This document shows, one piece after another, positions 37,377 through 62,338 of a DNA stretch of 64,000 nt. The notes below the pieces were generated by a model. That model was given only the letters and a program-made list of their open reading frames with translations, did no database searches and had not been told where the DNA came from. The position numbers and the translations under genes are program-made. Source of the stretch: Nakamurella alba (lineage in GTDB: Bacteria > Actinomycetota > Actinomycetes > Mycobacteriales > Nakamurellaceae); contig NZ_WLYK01000009.1 in assembly GCF_009707545.1 (NCBI RefSeq), positions 248,001 through 312,000 of the forward strand. The letters run 5' to 3'. Within the stretch, counting starts at the first letter, position 1. Each line of letters starts with the position of its first letter.

Positions 37377-38021
37377 TCAGCGACCGGCGAACGAGTTCTG
37401 GTAGCCGGCGGTCGCGGCGGCGACGTCGGCGTCCGGGGGCAGCAGCATGAAGACCTTCGGGGCCACCTTCTCGATGGATCCGCGCAGGGAGAACGCCAGA
37501 CCGGCGGAGAAGTCGACCAGCCGGCGGGCGTCGGAGTCCGACATCTGGGTCATGTCCAGGATCACGGACTGGCCCTCGCGGTACTTCTCCCCGATCACCC
37601 GCGCCTCGCCGAACCCGGTCAGCTTGACCGTGGACGGGCGGCCGGCGGAGGAGGTGTCCTCGCGGCGGATGGCGCTGATCGGCTCGGTCACGGCCTTGAC
37701 CGCGAGCGCCCCCTGGGTCGGCGCGTCGTCGTGGTAGCGACGACCACCGCCACCGGCCACCCCGGCGGTCGGCCGGGCCGGGTAGCGGTCGTAGTCGTCG
37801 TCGTACTTCTCGTCGTACTTGCCGGAGCCGTAGCCGCGGTCGGCCGCACGCTCGGAGCCCCGGTCGTCGCGGTCGTCACGGTCGTAGCTCGGTCCGTCGA
37901 AGGAGGACGAGGAGCGGTAGTCGCGCTCGTACTCGTCCGCGTAGTCGTCGCCGTCGGCGTACTGGCGGTGGTCCTCCGGGACGAGCCCCAGGAAGGCTCC
38001 AACCTTGCGCCCGATGCCCAT
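37377..38021 (-). CDS. sepF: Cell division protein SepF
   Basis: A 214-residue protein: an N-terminal amphipathic helix (MGIGRKVGAFLGLV), a disordered Asp/Arg/Tyr-rich linker (about 15-90) and a C-terminal SepF/DUF552 domain (about 115-205; EYREGQSVILDMTQMSDSDARRLVDFSAGLAF). SepF binds FtsZ's C-terminal tail and anchors the ring to the membrane; it is essential in Actinobacteria lacking FtsA. ATG at 38019-38021 follows GGAAGGA. It is separated from ftsZ by a terminator-bearing 348-bp gap and not by the usual pgeF and yggS genes. Confidence 0.95.
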   Translation of the reverse strand: MGIGRKVGAFLGLVPEDHRQYADGDDYADEYERDYRSSSSFDGPSYDRDDRDDRGSERAADRGYGSGKYDEKYDDDYDRYPARPTAGVAGGGGRRYHDDAPTQGALAVKAVTEPISAIRREDTSSAGRPSTVKLTGFGEARVIGEKYREGQSVILDMTQMSDSDARRLVDFSAGLAFSLRGSIEKVAPKVFMLLPPDADVAAATAGYQNSFAGR

Positions 38022-38369
38022 CGATCCGTCCTTCCGCTGAACTGTCCGACCCTGCCCCGTGAGGTCAGGGCCTGCGACGAGGCTATCGGCGCCGGGTGGC
38101 CCGTTCGGGTTGCGACACACCCGATGTGACGTCGCGTCGGAATTCTGTGTGCGGTCCCACCGGTCCCTGTGTGCACAGGGGTCCCATCCTGACGCCGGCT
38201 GCGGGCCATCGGACGGGCCCGACCGACCGGACGACGAAGGGCGACCACCCTCGGGTGGTCGCCCTTCCTCACGTCTGTCACCTCACGAAGCACGGAACCG
38301 CGTCGTGCGCAACGCTTCTCGCGCAGCGCGTCGCCGGCCGCCCTGTCGGGCCGGCGCGGTGGATGCCGG
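38022..38369. other. Intergenic region between ftsZ and sepF
   Basis: 348 bases without a credible gene. It holds the ftsZ terminator hairpin (38237-38266) and presumably a sepF promoter. pgeF and yggS, which sit here in mycobacteria and streptomycetes, are absent and no remnant of either was recognised. Confidence 0.7.
38237..38266 (-). terminator. Terminator of ftsZ
   Basis: Perfect 14-bp complementary arms (AAGGGCGACCACCC and GGGTGGTCGCCCTT) with a 2-nt centre, 104 nt after the ftsZ stop. The stem is very stable and lacks a U-run. It implies that sepF-yggT-divIVA have a separate promoter. Confidence 0.75.
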
Positions 38370-39584
38370 TCAGCGCTTCATGAACGGGGGGACGTCGACG
38401 TCGTCGTCGTCCTCCTCGAACTGCGGCACCGACCGCGGGGCCTGCGAGAGGTTCGCCGGCGGCGCGGCCGGCGGCATCGGCGGCACGTAGGCCGGCTGGG
38501 CCGGCTGGGCCGGCGGCGCGGAGGCCTGCGGCGGGACACCGGCGTTGTCCGGGTAGGCGGGGCGCAGTTCCCCGGCGCTCGCCTCGGCGATCACCCGGGA
38601 CGGCCGACGGTCGGCCGTACCGCCACCCGGGACGGTCGGGGTGGAGTCGAACCCGGCGGCGATCACGGTGACCCGCACCTCGTCGCCCAGGCTGTCGTCG
38701 ATCACCGTGCCGAAGATGATGTTGGCGTCCTCGTGCGCCGCCTCCTGCACCAGCGAGGCGGCCTCGTTGATCTCGAACAGCCCGAGGTCGCTGCCGCCGG
38801 CGATCGACAGCAGCACGCCGTGCGCACCGTCCATCGAGGCCTCGAGCAGCGGCGAGTTGATCGCCTTGCCGGCGGCCTGCACGGCCCGCCCCTCGCCGCG
38901 GGCCGAACCGATGCCCATCAGCGCGGTGCCGGCACCGGCCATCACCGACTTCACGTCGGCGAAGTCGACGTTGATCAGGCCCGGGGTGGTGATCAGGTCG
39001 GTGATGCCCTGGACACCGTTGAGCAGCACCTCGTCCGCCGACCGGAAGGCGTCCATCAGCGAGACGCCGAGGTCGCCCAGCTGCAGCAGCCGGTCGTTCG
39101 GAATGACGATCAGGGTGTCGCACTCGTTGCGCAGCTCCTGGATGCCCGACTCCGCCTGGCCGCCGCGGCGCTTGCCCTCGAAGGCGAACGGGCGGGTGAC
39201 CACGCCGATGGTCAGGGCGCCGAGCTTGCGGGCGATCGACGCGACGACCGGGGCGCCACCGGTGCCGGTACCGCCGCCCTCGCCCGCGGTCACGAAGACC
39301 ATGTCGGCCCCCTTGAGGACCTCCTCGATCTCCTCGCGGTGGTCCTCGGCGGCCTTCCGGCCCACCTCCGGGTTGGCGCCCGCGCCGAGACCGCGGGTCA
39401 GCTCGCGGCCGACGTCGAGCTTGACGTCCGCGTCGGACATGAGCAGGGCCTGCGCATCGGTGTTGATCGCGATGAACTCGACCCCGCGCAGGCCGACCTC
39501 GATCATCCGGTTGACGGCGTTCACGCCGCCGCCGCCGATGCCGACGACCTTGATCACGGCGAGGTAGTTGTGCGGTGGCGTCAT
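38370..39584 (-). CDS. ftsZ: Cell division GTPase FtsZ
   Basis: A 404-residue tubulin homologue that polymerises into the Z-ring. The GTP-binding loop is [10 protein letters not shown] (signature at 103-110), the T7 synergy loop is NVDFADV, and the C-terminus ends with [13 protein letters not shown], the short peptide that binds SepF and other partners. The variable linker (about 320-385) is Pro/Ala-rich. ATG at 39582-39584 after AGAAAGG. A TSUP transporter gene on the other strand lies where ftsQ would normally adjoin it, so ftsZ has its own promoter. Confidence 0.97.
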
Positions 39585-39691
39585 CGCCTGGCCTTTCTTC
39601 TCCGGGTCGGGTACGCCTGGTCGTGCCGGACGCCGGACCGGCAGGGCCGGCGCCGTGAAGGTGTGGGATCCCCGGTACTCATCGTGCCAGA

Positions 39692-39729
39692 AACCCTGAA
39701 CCTCAACCATACGGTTACAGTTATGTCAA
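39692..39729 (-). promoter_or_regulatory. ftsZ promoter region with GGTT repeats
   Basis: On the minus strand a perfect TTGACA (39724-39729) is followed by TATGGT (39706-39711) and three GGTT direct repeats 6-7 bp apart. The -35/-10 spacing (12 bp) is not ideal, so the exact start is unclear. The stretch is AT-richer than its surroundings, about 110-145 bp upstream of ftsZ. Confidence 0.35.
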
Positions 39730-43212: not shown

Positions 43213-44339
43213 CCGCGGCGCCGGCGGGCCGCTGCCAGCGCGATCCGGGCGAGAACCTCGTCGGCGTGGGCGGTCTCGCTGCCGGCGGCAGCCTCGGACA
43301 TGGCCGTCAGCGCCTGCGGGTCCTTGACCAGCGGGACGATGGTGTCGAGCACCGCCTCGCCGGTCAGCGCCTCCTCGTCGATCAGCCGGGCGGCGCCGCT
43401 CTGCACCTGCGGCAGCGCATTGAGCCGCTGCTCGCCGTTGCCGAAGGCGAGCGGCACGTAGACGACCGGGACCCGGACCGCACCGATCTCGGCCACGGTC
43501 ATCGCACCGGACCGGGCGACCATCAGATCGCCGGCGGCGTAGGCGAGGTCCATCCGGTCGACGTAGGGCACGGCGACATACGGCGGGCGGCCGGGCGGTG
43601 CGGGCGGCAGGTCCACCGGCTTGCCCTTGCCGTGCACGTGCAGCACGCCGACGCCGGCAGCGGCCAGCCGGTCGGCCACGGAGGCGAAGATCTGGTTGAA
43701 CTTGACCGCACCCAGCGACCCGCCGACGACCACCAGGGTCGGTGCGTCCGGGTCCAGACCGAAGTACTCGCGGGCCTGCGCCCGCAGCGCAGGGCGGTCC
43801 AATTCCCGCAGCGACCGGCGGACCGGGTTGCCGACCACCCGGGCGCCGGCCAGGCCGGTGTCCGGGACGGCGGCGGCGACCACGGTCGCGAACCGGGCGC
43901 CGATCTTGTTCGCGATACCGGCCCGGGCGTTGGCCTCGTGCACCACCACCGGCACCCGGCGGCGGGCCGCCAGGTAAGCAGGCAACGCCACGTAGCCGCC
44001 GAAACCGACCACCACGTCGATGTTCTCGGACTTGATGACGGCGCGGGCGGCCTTCACCGTGCGCCGCAACCGGCCCGGGATGCGGAGCACGTCCAGGTTC
44101 GCCTGCCGGGTGAACTTCACCTCGGGGATCAGCTCGAGCCGGTAGCCGCGGTCCGGGACCAGGGTGGTCTCCAGGCCCCGCTCGGTGCCCAGGCAGATGA
44201 CCGTCGCGGTCGGCTCGGCCGCCATGATCGCGTCCGCGACCGCCAGGGCGGGCTGCACGTGACCGGCGCTGCCGCCGCCGGCGATGAGGATCCGCGGCCC
44301 ACCGGCTGCGGCCGTCTCCGGACCGTCGGTGGCCGTCAT
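43209..44339 (-). CDS. murG: Lipid II-forming GlcNAc transferase
   Basis: A 376-residue GT28 glycosyltransferase that adds GlcNAc to lipid I at the inner membrane face. The conserved N-terminal loop GGGSAGHVQPALAVAD, VGFGGYVALPAYLAA, HEANARAGIANKIGAR, and the C-terminal donor site GGSLGAVKFNQ and ARSGAMTVAEI (usually RSGAxTxxE) are present. ATGA overlaps join it to ftsW upstream and murC downstream. Confidence 0.96.
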   Translation of the reverse strand: MTATDGPETAAAGGPRILIAGGGSAGHVQPALAVADAIMAAEPTATVICLGTERGLETTLVPDRGYRLELIPEVKFTRQANLDVLRIPGRLRRTVKAARAVIKSENIDVVVGFGGYVALPAYLAARRRVPVVVHEANARAGIANKIGARFATVVAAAVPDTGLAGARVVGNPVRRSLRELDRPALRAQAREYFGLDPDAPTLVVVGGSLGAVKFNQIFASVADRLAAAGVGVLHVHGKGKPVDLPPAPPGRPPYVAVPYVDRMDLAYAAGDLMVARSGAMTVAEIGAVRVPVVYVPLAFGNGEQRLNALPQVQSGAARLIDEEALTGEAVLDTIVPLVKDPQALTAMSEAAAGSETAHADEVLARIALAAARRRRG

Positions 44340-46222
44340 CGGCGCACCGTCCGGCCGGAGCGGCGGATCGTCCGCTCGCCCTGGTGATCGACCGGTATCG
44401 GCCGTGGCCGTCCGTCGCCCTGCACCTGCACCATCCTGTCCTTCCCGGCCCGGCCGGCGCCCGGGGTCTCCCGGCGCCGTCCGGCATCGTCCCGCATCCG
44501 CGCGTTCCCGGCTGCCCGGGGGTCGCCGCGGCGCGGGTCCGATCCTGCCGGACCGGCGGTCCTCCGGGCACCCCGGTCCTGCCGGGCACCCCGGTCCTGC
44601 CGGGCACCCCGGTCCCGCTGCGTGCCCGGGTCCCGGCGGTCCGTGGCCCGCTCCGCCGACCGCCCGGAGGTGCGACCCGCGACCGCCCGCTGGGACTTGG
44701 TGCCGCTCCGGGTGCCCGAGCGGCGGGCGTTGCCCGGGTGGGCGCGCCGGTCCGACCGGTCGCCATCACCCCTGCGGGCCGGGCGGGAGCGCTCGGCCCG
44801 CTCCCGACGCCGAGCGGCGCGGGCCTCTTCCCGGGCCGCACGCCGCCGGGCGCGCTTGGTGTTCTCCGTGCCCGCACCCGGCGTCGGTCGGCTGTGGATC
44901 CCGAGGAACCGGGCCACCCGGCCGGGCCCCTGCGCGTACAGCGCGGCGGCGGCCTGCGGCTCGGTACGGGCGAAGTTGGCAAGGATGCCGAAGACGAACA
45001 TGGTGACGATCAGCGAGGTGCCACCGGCCGAGATCATCGGCAGGGTGATCCCGGTGACCGGCAACAGGCCGACCACGTACCCGATGTTGATCGACGCCTG
45101 GCCGACCAGCCAGACCGTGCAGGACGAGGCGACGATCTTGATGAACGGGTCGACGTTGCGGCGGGCGATCCGGAATCCGGTGTAGGCGAGCATCGCGTAG
45201 AGCACCAGGACCAGCCCGGTCCCGACCAGGCCGAGCTCCTCGCCGATGATCGCGAAGATGAAGTCCGAGTCGGCGTTGGGCAGCGATCCCCACTTGGCCA
45301 CCGAGTTGCCGAGGCCTACGCCGAAGATGCCGCCGTGGCCCATGCCGAACAGGCCCTGGTTGAGCTGGTAGGTGGCTGCGGCGTTCGCCGGGTTGCTCGG
45401 GTCGAGGAAGGCGAAGACGCGGGCGGCGCGGTAGTCGGCGGAGGTGGCGAGGTAGGCGACACCGGCGACCGCACCGGTGCCGAGCAGTCCGAAGATCCAC
45501 CACGGCGCGCCGGCGAACCAGAGCACGGCGAAGAAGACGATGGTCAGGCTGACCGTGGTGCCGAGGTCGGGCTGCAGCATGATCAGCAGCACCATCAGCA
45601 CGAACACCGGCAGCACCGGGATCAGCAGGGCCCGCAGCGACCGCAGGGTGTGCCGGCGGGAGGCCAGCACGTGCGCCGACCAGACCAGCAGCGCGACCTT
45701 GGCCAGCTCGCTGGGCTGCACCGTGATGTTGCCGATGCCGAGCCAGGACCGGGCGCCACCACGGACCTGGCCGATCACCAGGGTGACCGCGAGCAGGCCG
45801 ATCGAGACCAGGACGCCGGGGAACGCCAGGCTGCGCATCGCCTTCGGCGCCAGGCGCGCGGCGAAGACGAACCCGAACAGCCCGACGAAGGCGTACAGCG
45901 CCTGGTTCTCGAAGGTGCCGAAGACGCCGTTCCCGCGCTTGAGGGCGGTGATCGACGACGCCGACAGCACCATCAGCAGACCGAAGGCGAGCAGCAGCCC
46001 GAAGACGCCGAGGATCAGGTGCCAGGACGTCATCGGCCGGCCCAGCCAGTCCTTCAACCGGGCGACCGGACCGGCCAGGAAGCCGGGCACGAGCGAGCTG
46101 CCCTTCGACTTCTGCTTCTTCTGCCCGTTCGACGACTTCTGCTGCGCTGACTTCTGAGTCGACTTCTGCTGGGCCGACCCGTCGGTGACGGCCGTGATCG
46201 CTCCGGTCCTCACCCGCGGCAC
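44336..46222 (-). CDS. ftsW: Peptidoglycan glycosyltransferase FtsW with long basic tail
   Basis: A 628-residue SEDS polymerase. The ten-TM core (about 68-425) contains RGGARSWLGIG, QPSELAKVALL with the catalytic-region motif, LPNADSDFIFAIIGEELG and GLLPVTGITLPMISAGGTSL. It joins lipid II into septal glycan with FtsI. Both flanks are unusual: a Gln/Lys/Ser-rich N-terminus and a basic, disordered C-terminal tail of about 190 residues with RGARQD repeats. GTG at 46222 is taken; GTG at 46213 is possible and neither has a clear ribosome site. murD, normally just upstream, is absent; a 727-bp gap precedes it. Confidence 0.95.
   Translation of the reverse strand: MPRVRTGAITAVTDGSAQQKSTQKSAQQKSSNGQKKQKSKGSSLVPGFLAGPVARLKDWLGRPMTSWHLILGVFGLLLAFGLLMVLSASSITALKRGNGVFGTFENQALYAFVGLFGFVFAARLAPKAMRSLAFPGVLVSIGLLAVTLVIGQVRGGARSWLGIGNITVQPSELAKVALLVWSAHVLASRRHTLRSLRALLIPVLPVFVLMVLLIMLQPDLGTTVSLTIVFFAVLWFAGAPWWIFGLLGTGAVAGVAYLATSADYRAARVFAFLDPSNPANAAATYQLNQGLFGMGHGGIFGVGLGNSVAKWGSLPNADSDFIFAIIGEELGLVGTGLVLVLYAMLAYTGFRIARRNVDPFIKIVASSCTVWLVGQASINIGYVVGLLPVTGITLPMISAGGTSLIVTMFVFGILANFARTEPQAAAALYAQGPGRVARFLGIHSRPTPGAGTENTKRARRRAAREEARAARRRERAERSRPARRGDGDRSDRRAHPGNARRSGTRSGTKSQRAVAGRTSGRSAERATDRRDPGTQRDRGARQDRGARQDRGARRTAGPAGSDPRRGDPRAAGNARMRDDAGRRRETPGAGRAGKDRMVQVQGDGRPRPIPVDHQGERTIRRSGRTVRR
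44562..44618 (-). repeat. 18-bp tandem repeats in the ftsW 3' tail
   Basis: Two and a half to three copies of an 18-bp unit (CCGGGCACCCCGGTCCTG on the plus strand) encode the RGARQD repeats of the FtsW tail. Near-identity suggests recent expansion. Confidence 0.7.
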
Positions 46223-46949
46223 CCGAGTGCAGGACGGGTGGCGACTGCGGTCACGGTTGCCACGTTGTCGGTGCTCGTCCGCATACTGCCGACAAGCCGG
46301 ACACCGGTCCCCCGACCGCAGGGTGCGGTCGGCAGGACGGACGTCATGGCTCGATGATCGGTGCCCCCTGCCTCCATCCGGGGGACATCGGAGGCGTGTC
46401 GAGCAACTCCCTCAACTTCGTGCCCAGTGACCACATCGAGCGCACTTTGCACACTCGTCCCACCAGTCACATCGGTCCCAGAGTTCACTGACGTCACTCA
46501 AGTCACATCAGTCTCGAACGAATCGGACCTTCCCGACGATCCGGAACATCGGTCCGGCCGCCGACCCCAGGGGATCGCCGACACTCCACCGTCCACGAAA
46601 CCGGGACCGATTCCATCGCCCGCCGATGCTTTCGGTCCCCGATCCGCGCCGGCCCACCCGGCGACCGACAACGGCACCCACCTCGGGGCGAAGTGCAGCG
46701 ACCACCTGCCCACCGCACACCCGGCCGCCGAAACCCGCTCATCGCCGGCAGCCCGCCGTCCACGAATCCGGGACCTTCTCCGTCGCCCACCGATGCTTTC
46801 GGTCCCCGATCCGCACCAGAACCCGGGCACCAGACCACGCCGGCGACGACACTCCCCCTCCCGGCGCAGTGCAGCAACCACCTGCCGACCGCTGCCCGGG
46901 CACACCAAGGCTCCGAAACCCTGCCAGGTCACCGCCCGACCACGACCGA
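46223..46949. other. 727-bp non-coding gap where murD is expected
   Basis: No reading frame here has a recognisable domain or ribosome site. One sampled 60-bp line (46441-46500) is 57% GC against about 72% for the window. The half next to ftsW contains dyads (a perfect 9-bp inverted repeat CCGACCGCA/TGCGGTCGG at 46312-46332; TTGTCGG/CCGACAA at 46265-46295), a TGACGTCA palindrome near 46489, and 12-bp near-direct repeats AGTCACATC(G/A)GT at 46465 and 46501. The half next to mraY is a duplicated unit of about 170 bp. No trace of MurD motifs was found. It must contain a promoter for ftsW-murG-murC-ftsQ. Confidence 0.75.
46587..46925. repeat. Tandem imperfect duplication of about 170 bp
   Basis: Unit one starts near 46587 and unit two near 46753. 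A 25-bp core is identical at 46623-46647 and 46790-46814 (167 bp apart); flanking blocks match with substitutions, including CCGTCCACGAA, AGTGCAGC(G/A)ACCACCTGCC (46692 and 46868) and CGAAACCC at the end. Each unit contains a small hairpin, (A/G)CCGA-TGCTT-TCGGT. Substitutions show the copies are not brand new. Confidence 0.8.
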
Positions 46950-48074
46950 CTACCCGCCGGTGTTCGCCAGCCAGTCGGCGTAGAAGAGCGCGGCGCCGAG
47001 GGCGGCGGACATGGCGGCGAGGAGCCAGAAGCGGACCATCACGGTGGTCTCGGTCCAGCCGCCGACCTCGAAGTGGTGGTGGAAGGGGGCCATCTTGAAG
47101 ATGCGGACCTTCCGGGCCTTGTAGACCAGCATCTGCAACACCACTGACAGCATCTCGACCACCGCCAGACCGGCGATGACGATCATCAGCATCTCGGTGC
47201 GGGTCAGGATGGAGAGCCCGGCGACGAGACCGCCGAGGGCCAGCGAACCGGAGTCGCCCATGAAGATCCGGGCCGGGTGCGCGTTCCACCAGAGGAACCC
47301 GATGCAGCCGCCGAGTGCCGCGGCGGTGACCACCGCGATGTCCAGCGGGTCGCGCACCTCGTAGCAGCCCTGCGCGGCGATCCCGGTGAGATCGACGTTC
47401 GCGCAGGCGTTCCGGAACTGGTAGAAGCCGATGAAGACATAGACGCCGAGCACCATCACCGACGACCCGGCGGCCAGCCCGTCCAGCCCGTCGGTGAAGT
47501 TGACGGCGTTGGACCAGGCGGCGATGACCAGCACCGCGAAGATCACGAAACCGACGGCGCCGAGCGAGATCCACGGGATGTCCCGGGTGTAGGACAGGTG
47601 CGTCGAGGCCGGGGTGAGGCCGGCGTAGGGGGTGCCGTCGTTCCGCACGCCGCCGACCGACCGGAACATCAGCGCCAGCACGCCGAAGGACACGGCGATG
47701 AAGGTCTGCCCGATCAGCTTCGCCCGCTTGTTCAGCCCGAGGCTGCGCTGCTTCCGGATCTTGATGAAGTCGTCGAGCATGCCGACCACGCCGAGACCGG
47801 TGGTCAGGTAGAGCAGCAGCCAGCCGGACGCGGTCGGACCGTTGCCGCCGCCGATCATCTGCACCACGGTGGAGACGACGTAGCCGACCCACATCGCGAT
47901 GATGATCGCGGTGCCGCCCATGGTCGGCGTGCCGCGCTTCTTCAGGTGGGTCTGCGGCCCGTCGTCCCGGATCTCCTGCCCGAACCCCTGCCGGGAGAAC
48001 ACCTTGATCAGGTACGGCGTCAGCAGGATGGAGACGACCAGACCCACGATCGCTGCGATCAGGATCGACTTCAC
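46950..48074 (-). CDS. mraY: Phospho-MurNAc-pentapeptide transferase
   Basis: A 374-residue polytopic enzyme making lipid I from UDP-MurNAc-pentapeptide and polyprenyl phosphate. Catalytic motifs are GMLDDFIKIRKQRSLGL (first Asp pair), NFTDGLDGLAAG (DGLDG) and the late histidine cluster APFHHHFE. Ten membrane segments. GTG at 48072-48074 overlaps the murF stop by 4 bp. Downstream, where murD normally begins, lies the repeat-filled gap. Confidence 0.97.
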   Translation of the reverse strand: MKSILIAAIVGLVVSILLTPYLIKVFSRQGFGQEIRDDGPQTHLKKRGTPTMGGTAIIIAMWVGYVVSTVVQMIGGGNGPTASGWLLLYLTTGLGVVGMLDDFIKIRKQRSLGLNKRAKLIGQTFIAVSFGVLALMFRSVGGVRNDGTPYAGLTPASTHLSYTRDIPWISLGAVGFVIFAVLVIAAWSNAVNFTDGLDGLAAGSSVMVLGVYVFIGFYQFRNACANVDLTGIAAQGCYEVRDPLDIAVVTAAALGGCIGFLWWNAHPARIFMGDSGSLALGGLVAGLSILTRTEMLMIVIAGLAVVEMLSVVLQMLVYKARKVRIFKMAPFHHHFEVGGWTETTVMVRFWLLAAMSAALGAALFYADWLANTGG

Positions 48075-49633
48075 CGGTGGTCCGGACCCTTCGTCGGGGA
48101 CGCCGCCGGGGCGTCCGCTTCCTCGACCCGCACCGCAGGCCATGCCGGATCAGCCGGATCCGCCACCCCGGCCGACTCGGGGGAATCAGCCAGCAATGCC
48201 AGCGCCACCCGCTCCAGACCGGCCGCGCGGGAGGCCTTTACCAGCACCACGTCACCCGGCTGCAGGTCGCTCCGCACCGCGTCGACGGCTGCGGCCACGT
48301 CCGGCACCCAGAGGCTCTCGCCGTCCCAGGAGCCTTCCAGATGGGCGCCCATATGCAGCGGCCGGGCCCCGGGGCCGACCGCGATCACCTGGTGCACACC
48401 CAGCCGGACCGCCAGCCGGCCGACGGCGTCGTGCGCGTCCCGGGCCGCGTCACCGAGCTCACCCATCTCGCCGAGCACCGCCCAGGTCCTGCGGCCACGC
48501 CCGATGGTGGCCAGCGAGCGCAGCGCGGCCTTCATCGACTCCGGGTTGGCGTTGTAGGCGTCGTTGACGATCGTCACCCCGTCCGGCCGGGTGGTGACCT
48601 CCATCCGCCACTTCGAGGCAGGCCCGGCGGTGCCGAGGGCCGCCGCGATCGCCGGCGTCGACATGCCGACGGCCCGGCCGACCGCGGCAGCGGTGAGTGC
48701 GTTGCCGATCTGGTGCTCGCCGGCCACGGCGAGCTGCACCGGGGCGGTGCCCTCGGGGGTGACCAGGGTGAAGGACGCCCGGGCCAGCTCGTCCTCGCCG
48801 ATGTCCTCGGCCCGCAGGTCGGCGCCCGGGCCGGTGCCGACAGTGACCACCGCGGCGGACGTCCGGTCGCGCATGGCGAGCACCCGGCCGTCGTCGGCGT
48901 TGAGCACGGCGATGCCGCCGTCGGCGGCCGTCGGCAACGACTCGACCAGTTCGCCCTTGGCCTGCGCGATGCCCTCCACCGAGCCGAACTCGCCCAGGTG
49001 CGCGCTGCCGACGTTGAGCACCGCGCCGATCAGCGGTCGTGCCGTGGTGGCCAGCGCAGCGATGTGGCCGATGCCGCGGGCGGAGAGCTCGAGCACCAGG
49101 AACCGGGTGCCCGGCCCGGCCCGCAGCACGGTGTACGGGTGGCCGAGCTCGTTGTTGAACGACTCGCGGGGGGCGACCACGGCACCGCCGGACCCCGCCG
49201 GATCGGCTCCGTAGTCGACCGCGGTGCCGGCGTGGGCGGCGAGCACCGCGGCGACGAGGTCCTTGGTGGAGGTCTTGCCGGAGGACCCGGTGATGCCGAC
49301 GACCACCAGGCCGGCCTCGACCAGTGCGCCGACCGAGGCCCGCGCGAGCCGGGCCAGCGCCGGCAGGACGTCGTCGGCCGAGGGCAGCACCAGCACCGGG
49401 ATCCCGGCGTCGTCGATCGCCCGCGATCCGAGCACCGCCACCGCCCCGGCGGTCGCGGCCGCTGCAGCGAAGTCGTGCCCGTCCACCCGCTCGCCGGGCA
49501 GTGCCACGAAGAGGGCGCCCGGCCGGACCCGGCGGGTGTCGAACTCGACCGAGTCGACCACGGCATCGGCGCCGGCCGACGGAGCGGGGACACCCAGCAC
49601 GCCGGCCACTTCGGCCACCGTCATCGGGATCAC
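48071..49633 (-). CDS. murF: UDP-MurNAc-tripeptide--D-Ala-D-Ala ligase
   Basis: A 520-residue Mur ligase. The N-terminal domain has DTRRVRPGALFVALPGERVDGHDF, the P-loop is GITGSSGKTSTKD (about 113-125), the central motif ESFNNELGHPYTVL, and NDAYNANPESMKAAL lies in the C-terminal domain. It completes the cytoplasmic pentapeptide precursor. The last 30 residues are an Ala/Pro/Asp-rich tail. GTG at 49631-49633 overlaps murE by 4 bp. Confidence 0.96.
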   Translation of the reverse strand: MIPMTVAEVAGVLGVPAPSAGADAVVDSVEFDTRRVRPGALFVALPGERVDGHDFAAAAATAGAVAVLGSRAIDDAGIPVLVLPSADDVLPALARLARASVGALVEAGLVVVGITGSSGKTSTKDLVAAVLAAHAGTAVDYGADPAGSGGAVVAPRESFNNELGHPYTVLRAGPGTRFLVLELSARGIGHIAALATTARPLIGAVLNVGSAHLGEFGSVEGIAQAKGELVESLPTAADGGIAVLNADDGRVLAMRDRTSAAVVTVGTGPGADLRAEDIGEDELARASFTLVTPEGTAPVQLAVAGEHQIGNALTAAAVGRAVGMSTPAIAAALGTAGPASKWRMEVTTRPDGVTIVNDAYNANPESMKAALRSLATIGRGRRTWAVLGEMGELGDAARDAHDAVGRLAVRLGVHQVIAVGPGARPLHMGAHLEGSWDGESLWVPDVAAAVDAVRSDLQPGDVVLVKASRAAGLERVALALLADSPESAGVADPADPAWPAVRVEEADAPAASPTKGPDHR

Positions 49634-61773: not shown

Positions 61774-62338
61774 GGGCACCAGATCGGGCGCGTGGCTGAT
61801 CACACCGGACCGGACGTCCTGGCGGTCGTCCGCGATCATGAGCTGAACGGCGGACCATGTCCGTGTCCGCATGCTGACCGACGTCGCTCTCAGCAAGAAG
61901 TCTGTCGGCGGACGCGTGCCGCAACATCCGAGACGCTGCACCGTCGATCGGTGCCGTTGGGTCGCGGATCGCGCGGGTGGACGGCGCGGATCGGGTGCGT
62001 CGGCCGATTTCGAGCGCCAACAGGCCAGGGTCCGCGCCATGGAGGAGTCGGGATGGGGCCGGGCCGACTCAGGTGGCACATAGGGATCGGGGACCGCAAC
62101 CATCGGTGGCCGGGGGGGAACGGTCCCGGATGTCCCGGCCGGCGTCGTGGGACAGGCAGCTGATCCGGTCCGACGGCGGTCGGCCTGTCCCCGGCGTCAC
62201 TGGCCGCGGCTACCGCGGTAGTGGTGTCGCGGTGTCCCAGCTCCGTGGTCTCACGCTTGTGGGCCGTGTGCGGTCTGGTCCTCCGCAGCCGCGACGCGGG
62301 CCGGCTTCCTGCACCACCGGCTTCCAGGAACGCCGAAA

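Follow-up and report, generated by a model that had tools for sequence, protein, structure and literature searches.

The gap between mraY and ftsW

Where has murD gone in this genome, and what stands at its site? In the window, i.e. the whole stretch of 64,000 nt from Nakamurella alba that was analysed, ftsW and mraY flank a gap at the place where canonical relatives carry murD (Table 1). A first-pass annotation had reported 727 bp without murD between the two genes, and this is borne out by the open reading frames, the profile matches and the comparison with congeners. Might the gap be an artefact of assembly? The assembly does consist of 29 contigs, but the gap sits within a contig of 415,554 bases, and murD is likewise absent from the mraY-ftsW site in all four other congeners with murL (see below), which makes an artefact hardly credible.

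The same annotation had set the gap apart by its lower GC content and by overlaps of 4 to 23 bp at the other mur/fts junctions. A lower GC content is found in two of the twelve 60-bp lines (52-58%), but it is mostly local, the whole gap having 68.4% GC, the window 71.9% and mraY 68.0%. Overlaps of 4 bp exist at three junctions in the list of open reading frames (murE/murF, ftsW/murG and murC/ftsQ), but the value depends on the choice of start: with the longest-ORF start of mraY, the murF/mraY overlap is 73 bp. A duplicated unit of about 170 bp, also claimed, is confirmed. Its two copies are 77% identical over 172 aligned columns, with ungapped pieces 82% and 79% identical. It lies upstream of the conserved element described below. 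Pieces of the unit are found again on the opposite strand at 61950-61995 and 62084-62144 (82% over 61 bp, 81% over 47 bp), pointing to a dispersed intergenic repeat. A perfect inverted repeat with 9-bp arms and a 3-bp loop lies at 46312-46332, between the murD remnant and ftsW, with no T run after it. The scan of the gap for consensus promoters and terminators gave nothing, and an Rfam search of 45500-47500 at a lax threshold gave three matches, all under the gathering scores and to implausible families.

Table 1. Features of the window discussed in the text
Feature	Position	Strand	Basis or remark
sepF	37377-38120
ftsZ-sepF interval, 249 bp; pgeF site of canonical congeners, pgeF absent	38121-38369	.	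congener comparison
ftsZ	38370-39710
ftsW	44336-46222	-	TIGR02614, above cut-off
mraY-ftsW gap (murD site of canonical relatives)	46223-46949	.	ORFs, synteny
Decayed 3' part of murD (G004 MurD piece, residues about 409-433)	46333-46407	-	protein and DNA matches
Conserved element, CGACACGC ... GATCAT (hexamer 46354-46359)	46354-46401	-	comparison of murD ends and gaps
Duplication copy 1, imperfect	46554-46716	.	sequence self-comparison
Duplication copy 2, imperfect	46721-46892	.	sequence self-comparison
mraY	46950-48143	-	TIGR00445, above cut-off

A remnant of murD in the gap

Is the gap free of MurD motifs, as the first-pass annotation had it? It is not: its minus strand is matched by all 12 canonical MurD proteins of the genus. 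The best match is to MurD of G004 (37.0 bits, E 5e-7, 64% over 25 aa) and the weakest to that of G008 (E 0.068). In 1000 dinucleotide shuffles of the window gap the maximum was 30.0 bits, and none reached 37 bits. At the DNA level, 46343-46404 matches the 3' end of G004 murD at 82% over 62 bp. The suggestion of a gene loss scar has thus found its evidence, by both the protein matches and the shuffles.

Remnants are also present in other murD-less gaps, namely those of G010 (33.9 bits with MurD of its sister G013), G069 (40.8 bits with G093, a canonical congener), G075 (31.2 bits with G093, equalled by G016) and G160 (59.3 bits with its canonical congener G148); the shuffle control covers the window gap. 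At E<=0.05, seven of 17 gaps gave a remnant, weak in G122 and G228, and the other 10 gave none. The murD2 proteins gave no match to the gap at E<=0.05. The remnants in several gaps indicate that murD once stood there and decayed in place in more than one lineage. Among the canonical proteins, the MurD of G001 (L159) is more than 100 residues longer than its relatives and has a repetitive stretch near the C-terminus.

Two states within one genus and across the order

Is there any pattern in the loss? Among the 17 genomes covered for the family, all of one genus, MurL is found in five, namely the window's genome (G000), G002, G010, G012 and G014, while MurI is above cut-off in exactly the other 12 and in none of these five. 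The two are mutually exclusive in all 17. Each of the 17 genomes has one MurD-type gene at E<=1e-40, and murD lies between mraY and ftsW in 12/12 MurI genomes and 0/5 MurL genomes. MurL and MurI genomes are interleaved both in a tree built from six dcw proteins and in an independent tree of RpoBC, for which 16 of the 17 genomes were used (no match in G015). G000 forms a pair with canonical G004 (0.998; bootstrap 100), as G010 does with canonical G013 (1.0; 100), and G002 falls into a group with canonical G003 and G011 (1.0; 100). The gene content and the interleaved states together indicate that murD was displaced rather than relocated. Second mraY genes were noticed outside the dcw cluster in G010 (L169) and G007 (L176).

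A survey of 249 genomes of the order, some of them incomplete, gave MurL at E<=1e-10 in 61 and MurI at E<=1e-25 in 187, with 177 genomes having a MurI match above cut-off. Three genomes have both, MurL being weak in G038, MurI weak in G184 and both strong in G246; four (G020, G021, G046 and G131) have neither. Species of both kinds exist in genera g1, g7, g17, g21, g41 and g49. Among 20 dcw loci from other genera, those of all 12 MurL-only genomes lack murD, and those of all seven MurI-only genomes and of G246 have it. The last genome (L236, L248) has a strong MurI, a canonical dcw murD and a full-length MurL with no MurD2 match beside it; it is possibly an intermediate, or its MurL possibly has another function. 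In G020 (L334; 86% complete), where neither MurI nor MurL was found, no murD lies between mraY and ftsW, and a weak MurD match is located elsewhere on the contig. The MurI matches in genera g20, g38 and g60 of family f7 are no better than about 1e-29 to 1e-35, well short of most others, and the racemase there is perhaps divergent.

The replacing genes

What does the work of MurD in the window's genome? A copy elsewhere or a functional replacement had been anticipated by the first-pass annotation; the second alternative stands, the distant gene being of the murL-linked MurD2 type. The MurD profile search of the genome gave one match above cut-off, on contig C5 (249.3 bits), and the MurD-like gene at L018:7797-9164 scores 250.9 bits. 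The gene directly before it encodes a MurL homologue (NF041275, 327.9 bits, E 7.8e-98, positions 7-438 of 447), which is below the family cut-off of 700, a score that none of the 249 genomes of the order reaches. Before murL, in turn, a gene for a protein of the PgeF/YfiH family is found (PF02578, 254.6 bits). The best score for glutamate racemase (MurI) in the genome is 20.2 bits, against a cut-off of 146.65. A MurD2 match stands beside MurL in 78 of 80 loci, and the other two end at a contig end.

The residues agree in part with this assignment of the ligase. At the K348 position there is R in the window genome's enzyme and in 84/84 murL-linked enzymes, and K in 20/20 canonical ones. Among the 84 murL-linked enzymes, the A414 position has P in 64, and the L416 position has F in 64 and Y in 18. 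At the position of E197 of X. oryzae MurD2, which is a property of one studied enzyme and not a definition of the family, the window genome's enzyme has D, as do 72 of the 84, the remaining 12 having E. K348 and D182 are motif positions in E. coli numbering, D182 corresponding to E197 of X. oryzae. Use of L-Glu by the replacing ligase is likely from its context, and the activities of this ligase and of MurL are putative.

Could the dcw murD itself have moved to another contig with its function kept? The genome does hold one full-length MurD-like gene above the MurD cut-off. This gene, however, adjoins murL, and its product shares 60-63% identity with the other ligases linked to murL in the genus but only about 30% with canonical MurD, which together with the MurD2 type speaks for replacement. 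The ligase carries R at the K348 position and groups with Frankia murL-linked ligases in the MurD2 tree (0.999), and a remnant of murD is still in the gap. Unless the genome has a second, canonical murD, relocation is refuted by the tree, and such a move is very improbable. The trees contain 85 MurL and 84 MurD2 sequences; eighteen loci, L249 and matches under about 340 residues were left out.

Some neighbouring genes may be mentioned. A gene for an FAD-linked oxidase (PF02913/PF01565) at L018:14172-15521 is found near or next to murD2, in convergent orientation, in several lineages including Frankia (L178, L177, L083, L084), and is possibly a fourth member of the cassette. In the window's genome, a D-Ala-D-Ala ligase-like gene (L018:3006-3950) precedes the cassette by about 2 kb; none was found near murL in the other four murL congeners. 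Further Mur-ligase-type proteins matching the Mur ligase C-terminal domain are encoded on contigs C17 (two) and C1 (one) of G000 (L019, L020).

A second dcw gene is involved, that of pgeF. It lies between ftsZ and sepF in all seven informative canonical congeners, ftsZ being outside the stretches of the other five of the 12. Of the four murL genomes covered, G000, G010 and G012 have pgeF in the cassette and none between ftsZ and sepF, while G002 has it between ftsZ and sepF and a cassette without it. No convincing pgeF remnant was found between ftsZ and sepF in G000, G010 and G012, the best score being 18.5 bits. Of 80 loci with murL, 52 also have a pgeF match. In G231 and G069, murL genomes of other families, pgeF was found in neither place at the sensitivity used, which counts against a simple swap rule.

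A conserved element at the murD 3' end

Then why is this piece of murD still recognisable? Alignment of the remnants with canonical murD 3' ends gave common strings. The string GACACGC is present in 20/20 canonical murD genes of the first set, where the Arg codon at the site is CGA in 19 and one gene has GGA; CGA makes up 50 of the 601 Arg codons of those genes. With 17 more genomes added to these 20 genes, CGACACGC is found in 36 of 37 murD 3' ends from 15 families, the exception being G195, and all 36 element-bearing ends have a hexamer of the form xAxxxT at +42 from its first base.

Of 19 gaps without murD, 17 retain GACACGC. Eleven have the hexamer at +42, three (G002, G073 and G025) at +43 and two (G192 and G231) at +48; the G160 gap has GACACGC only and no hexamer, and the gaps of G012 and G014 have neither. 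For the first 17 gaps, taken as stretches including short ends of the flanking genes, GACACGC was observed in 15 against 1.97 expected from shuffles, and the full pattern in 12 against 0.033; the gap genomes are related, so that these counts are not independent. In the 64,000-nt window a loose pattern occurs twice, once at the element, against 0.38 expected. A stricter pattern occurs in 52 of 316 loci, which are all dcw pieces, many of them overlapping, except L084, L141, L184 and L187. In the window the element overlaps the murD remnant, with GACAC upstream of ftsW at 46396-46400 on the minus strand, and a transcription start is predicted near 46347, 125 nt before the GTG of ftsW. In six of seven murL genomes examined in family f16, an in-frame FtsW start codon stands at +54, seven bases past the hexamer, so that the message would be leaderless.

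What might the element do? In S. venezuelae, WhiA recognises GACAC and leaves a footprint at the ftsW promoter (PMC3781837). Since GACAC is the WhiA consensus and a WhiA footprint lies at the Streptomyces ftsW promoter, the best reading of these sequences is that the murD 3' end may also be the ftsW promoter, kept after the displacement of murD. We consider it fairly probable that across the order the last part of the murD coding sequence serves as a WhiA-type promoter of ftsW, and that after replacement by MurL/MurD2 the promoter remains, sometimes with a leaderless ftsW start. The idea of a promoter island, raised in the first-pass annotation, gains support here, but the element looks inherited from inside murD and not new.

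An unlikely alternative is that the element is a DNA signal other than a WhiA promoter, for another regulator, for mRNA processing or at the RNA level, or that it is a conserved coding stretch in slow decay. GACAC is short and common, with about 15,000 copies in S. venezuelae (PMC3781837), and binding of WhiA at the element is a prediction. The sigma-70 consensus scan of the gap gave no promoter, and in windows of 15 columns (z about -0.2 to 1.9) the synonymous codons within the segment show no clear excess of conservation over other parts of murD. Against this alternative stand a spacing fixed in f16 gaps where no murD coding is detectable, the constant position of xAxxxT in all murD ends bearing the element, the FtsW starts seven bases past it in six of seven f16 genomes and the WhiA footprint at the ftsW promoter in Streptomyces.

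Proposed history

What history could have led to these two states? We propose, with a probability of roughly 0.8, that a cassette of pgeF, murL and murD2 replaced murD, and that a 3' scrap of murD was kept as the promoter of ftsW. The ancestor would have had a canonical murD between mraY and ftsW, plus murI. The cassette would then have been acquired at another site, the dcw copy of pgeF would have been lost as well, and murD would have decayed in place. About 75 bp near its 3' end would have stayed recognisable because the same DNA carries the ftsW promoter, which would consist of the WhiA-type GACAC site and a -10-like hexamer 42 nt past the first base of CGACACGC. The loss or alteration of the element in G012, G014, G160, G002, G073, G025, G192 and G231 counts against this proposal, as do the unremarkable synonymous codons, the negative sigma-70 scan, the D at the E197 position of the ligase and the 10 gaps in which no remnant was found.

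Was the cassette gained several times? It may instead have stood in the ancestor of the genus together with canonical murD and murI, with differential loss afterwards. This concerns the history only and is compatible with displacement, and we give it somewhat less than an even chance. The five murD2 of the genus are monophyletic (0.968), as are the five murL (0.978), the order of the murD2 is partly like the dcw tree, and G246 has both pathways. On the other hand, outside the cassette and the FAD oxidase no flanking gene is common to G000, G002, G010 and G012/G014 in stretches of 12-18 kb, the MurL tree orders the five differently (with weak support), and under differential loss both pathways would have had to exist side by side for long. 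In the sister G013, 400 kb at the collinear position were searched for an empty site of the murL cassette of G010 and showed no synteny.

If the displacement of murD with retention of the promoter is true, the repeated replacement of murD by MurL/MurD2 would be a natural deletion experiment, in which the coding constraint is gone and the promoter is left. A dual role of the murD end would be exposed because the coding role has been removed in several lineages, making it a testable case of one DNA stretch as both coding sequence and promoter. An essential step of cell wall synthesis has been swapped between alternative pathways inside one genus, and the remnant proves what was lost. The distribution also shows which actinobacteria are likely to be without glutamate racemase as a target, and it ties pgeF, a precursor-editing enzyme, to the same cassette as murL-murD2.

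Comparison with known systems

In literature searches, outside of which most subscription papers lay, nothing joined murD, ftsW and WhiA, and nothing was found on Nakamurella together with murD. A phrase search for a promoter inside murD gave Enterococcus papers only, and MurL with MurD2 and epimerase gave reviews only, the original MurL report being among the subscription papers outside the search. Papers naming the dcw cluster, murD and Actinobacteria together do exist, PMC5943314 among them.

PgeF/YfiH/YlmD proteins are described in PMC8844914 and PMC5943314. The present PF02578 protein is like them, with its gene between ftsZ and sepF in canonical congeners; unlike them, it has its gene in front of murL in the cassette, and no dcw copy is left in 3/3 examinable members of the genus with a cassette copy. 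The MurD2/MurL pathway is known from Xanthomonas and from the actinobacteria Micromonospora, Actinoplanes, Verrucosispora and Salinispora, according to PMC8788868 and PMC5808125, and the stereospecificity of X. oryzae MurD2 is determined by E197 and R358 (PMC8788868). As in that pathway, murL here adjoins a MurD-like ligase, murI is absent at cut-off, and the ligase has R, P and F at the K348, A414 and L416 positions. It differs from X. oryzae MurD2 in having D at the E197 position. In contrast to the MurD2/MurL systems as far as described in these sources, the pair here travels with a pgeF homologue, both pathways occur in one genus, and a remnant marks the old site.

For Streptomyces, an ftsW-specific promoter in mid-dcw is inferred by the authors of PMC3781837, whose Table 1 gives 269 bp for ftsW, and WhiB co-controls the ftsW promoter (PMC4850268); murD is mentioned in neither text. 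Unlike the accounts of the WhiA/WhiB ftsW promoter given there, the putative site here is traced to the coding end of murD in 15 families, and it outlives murD itself.
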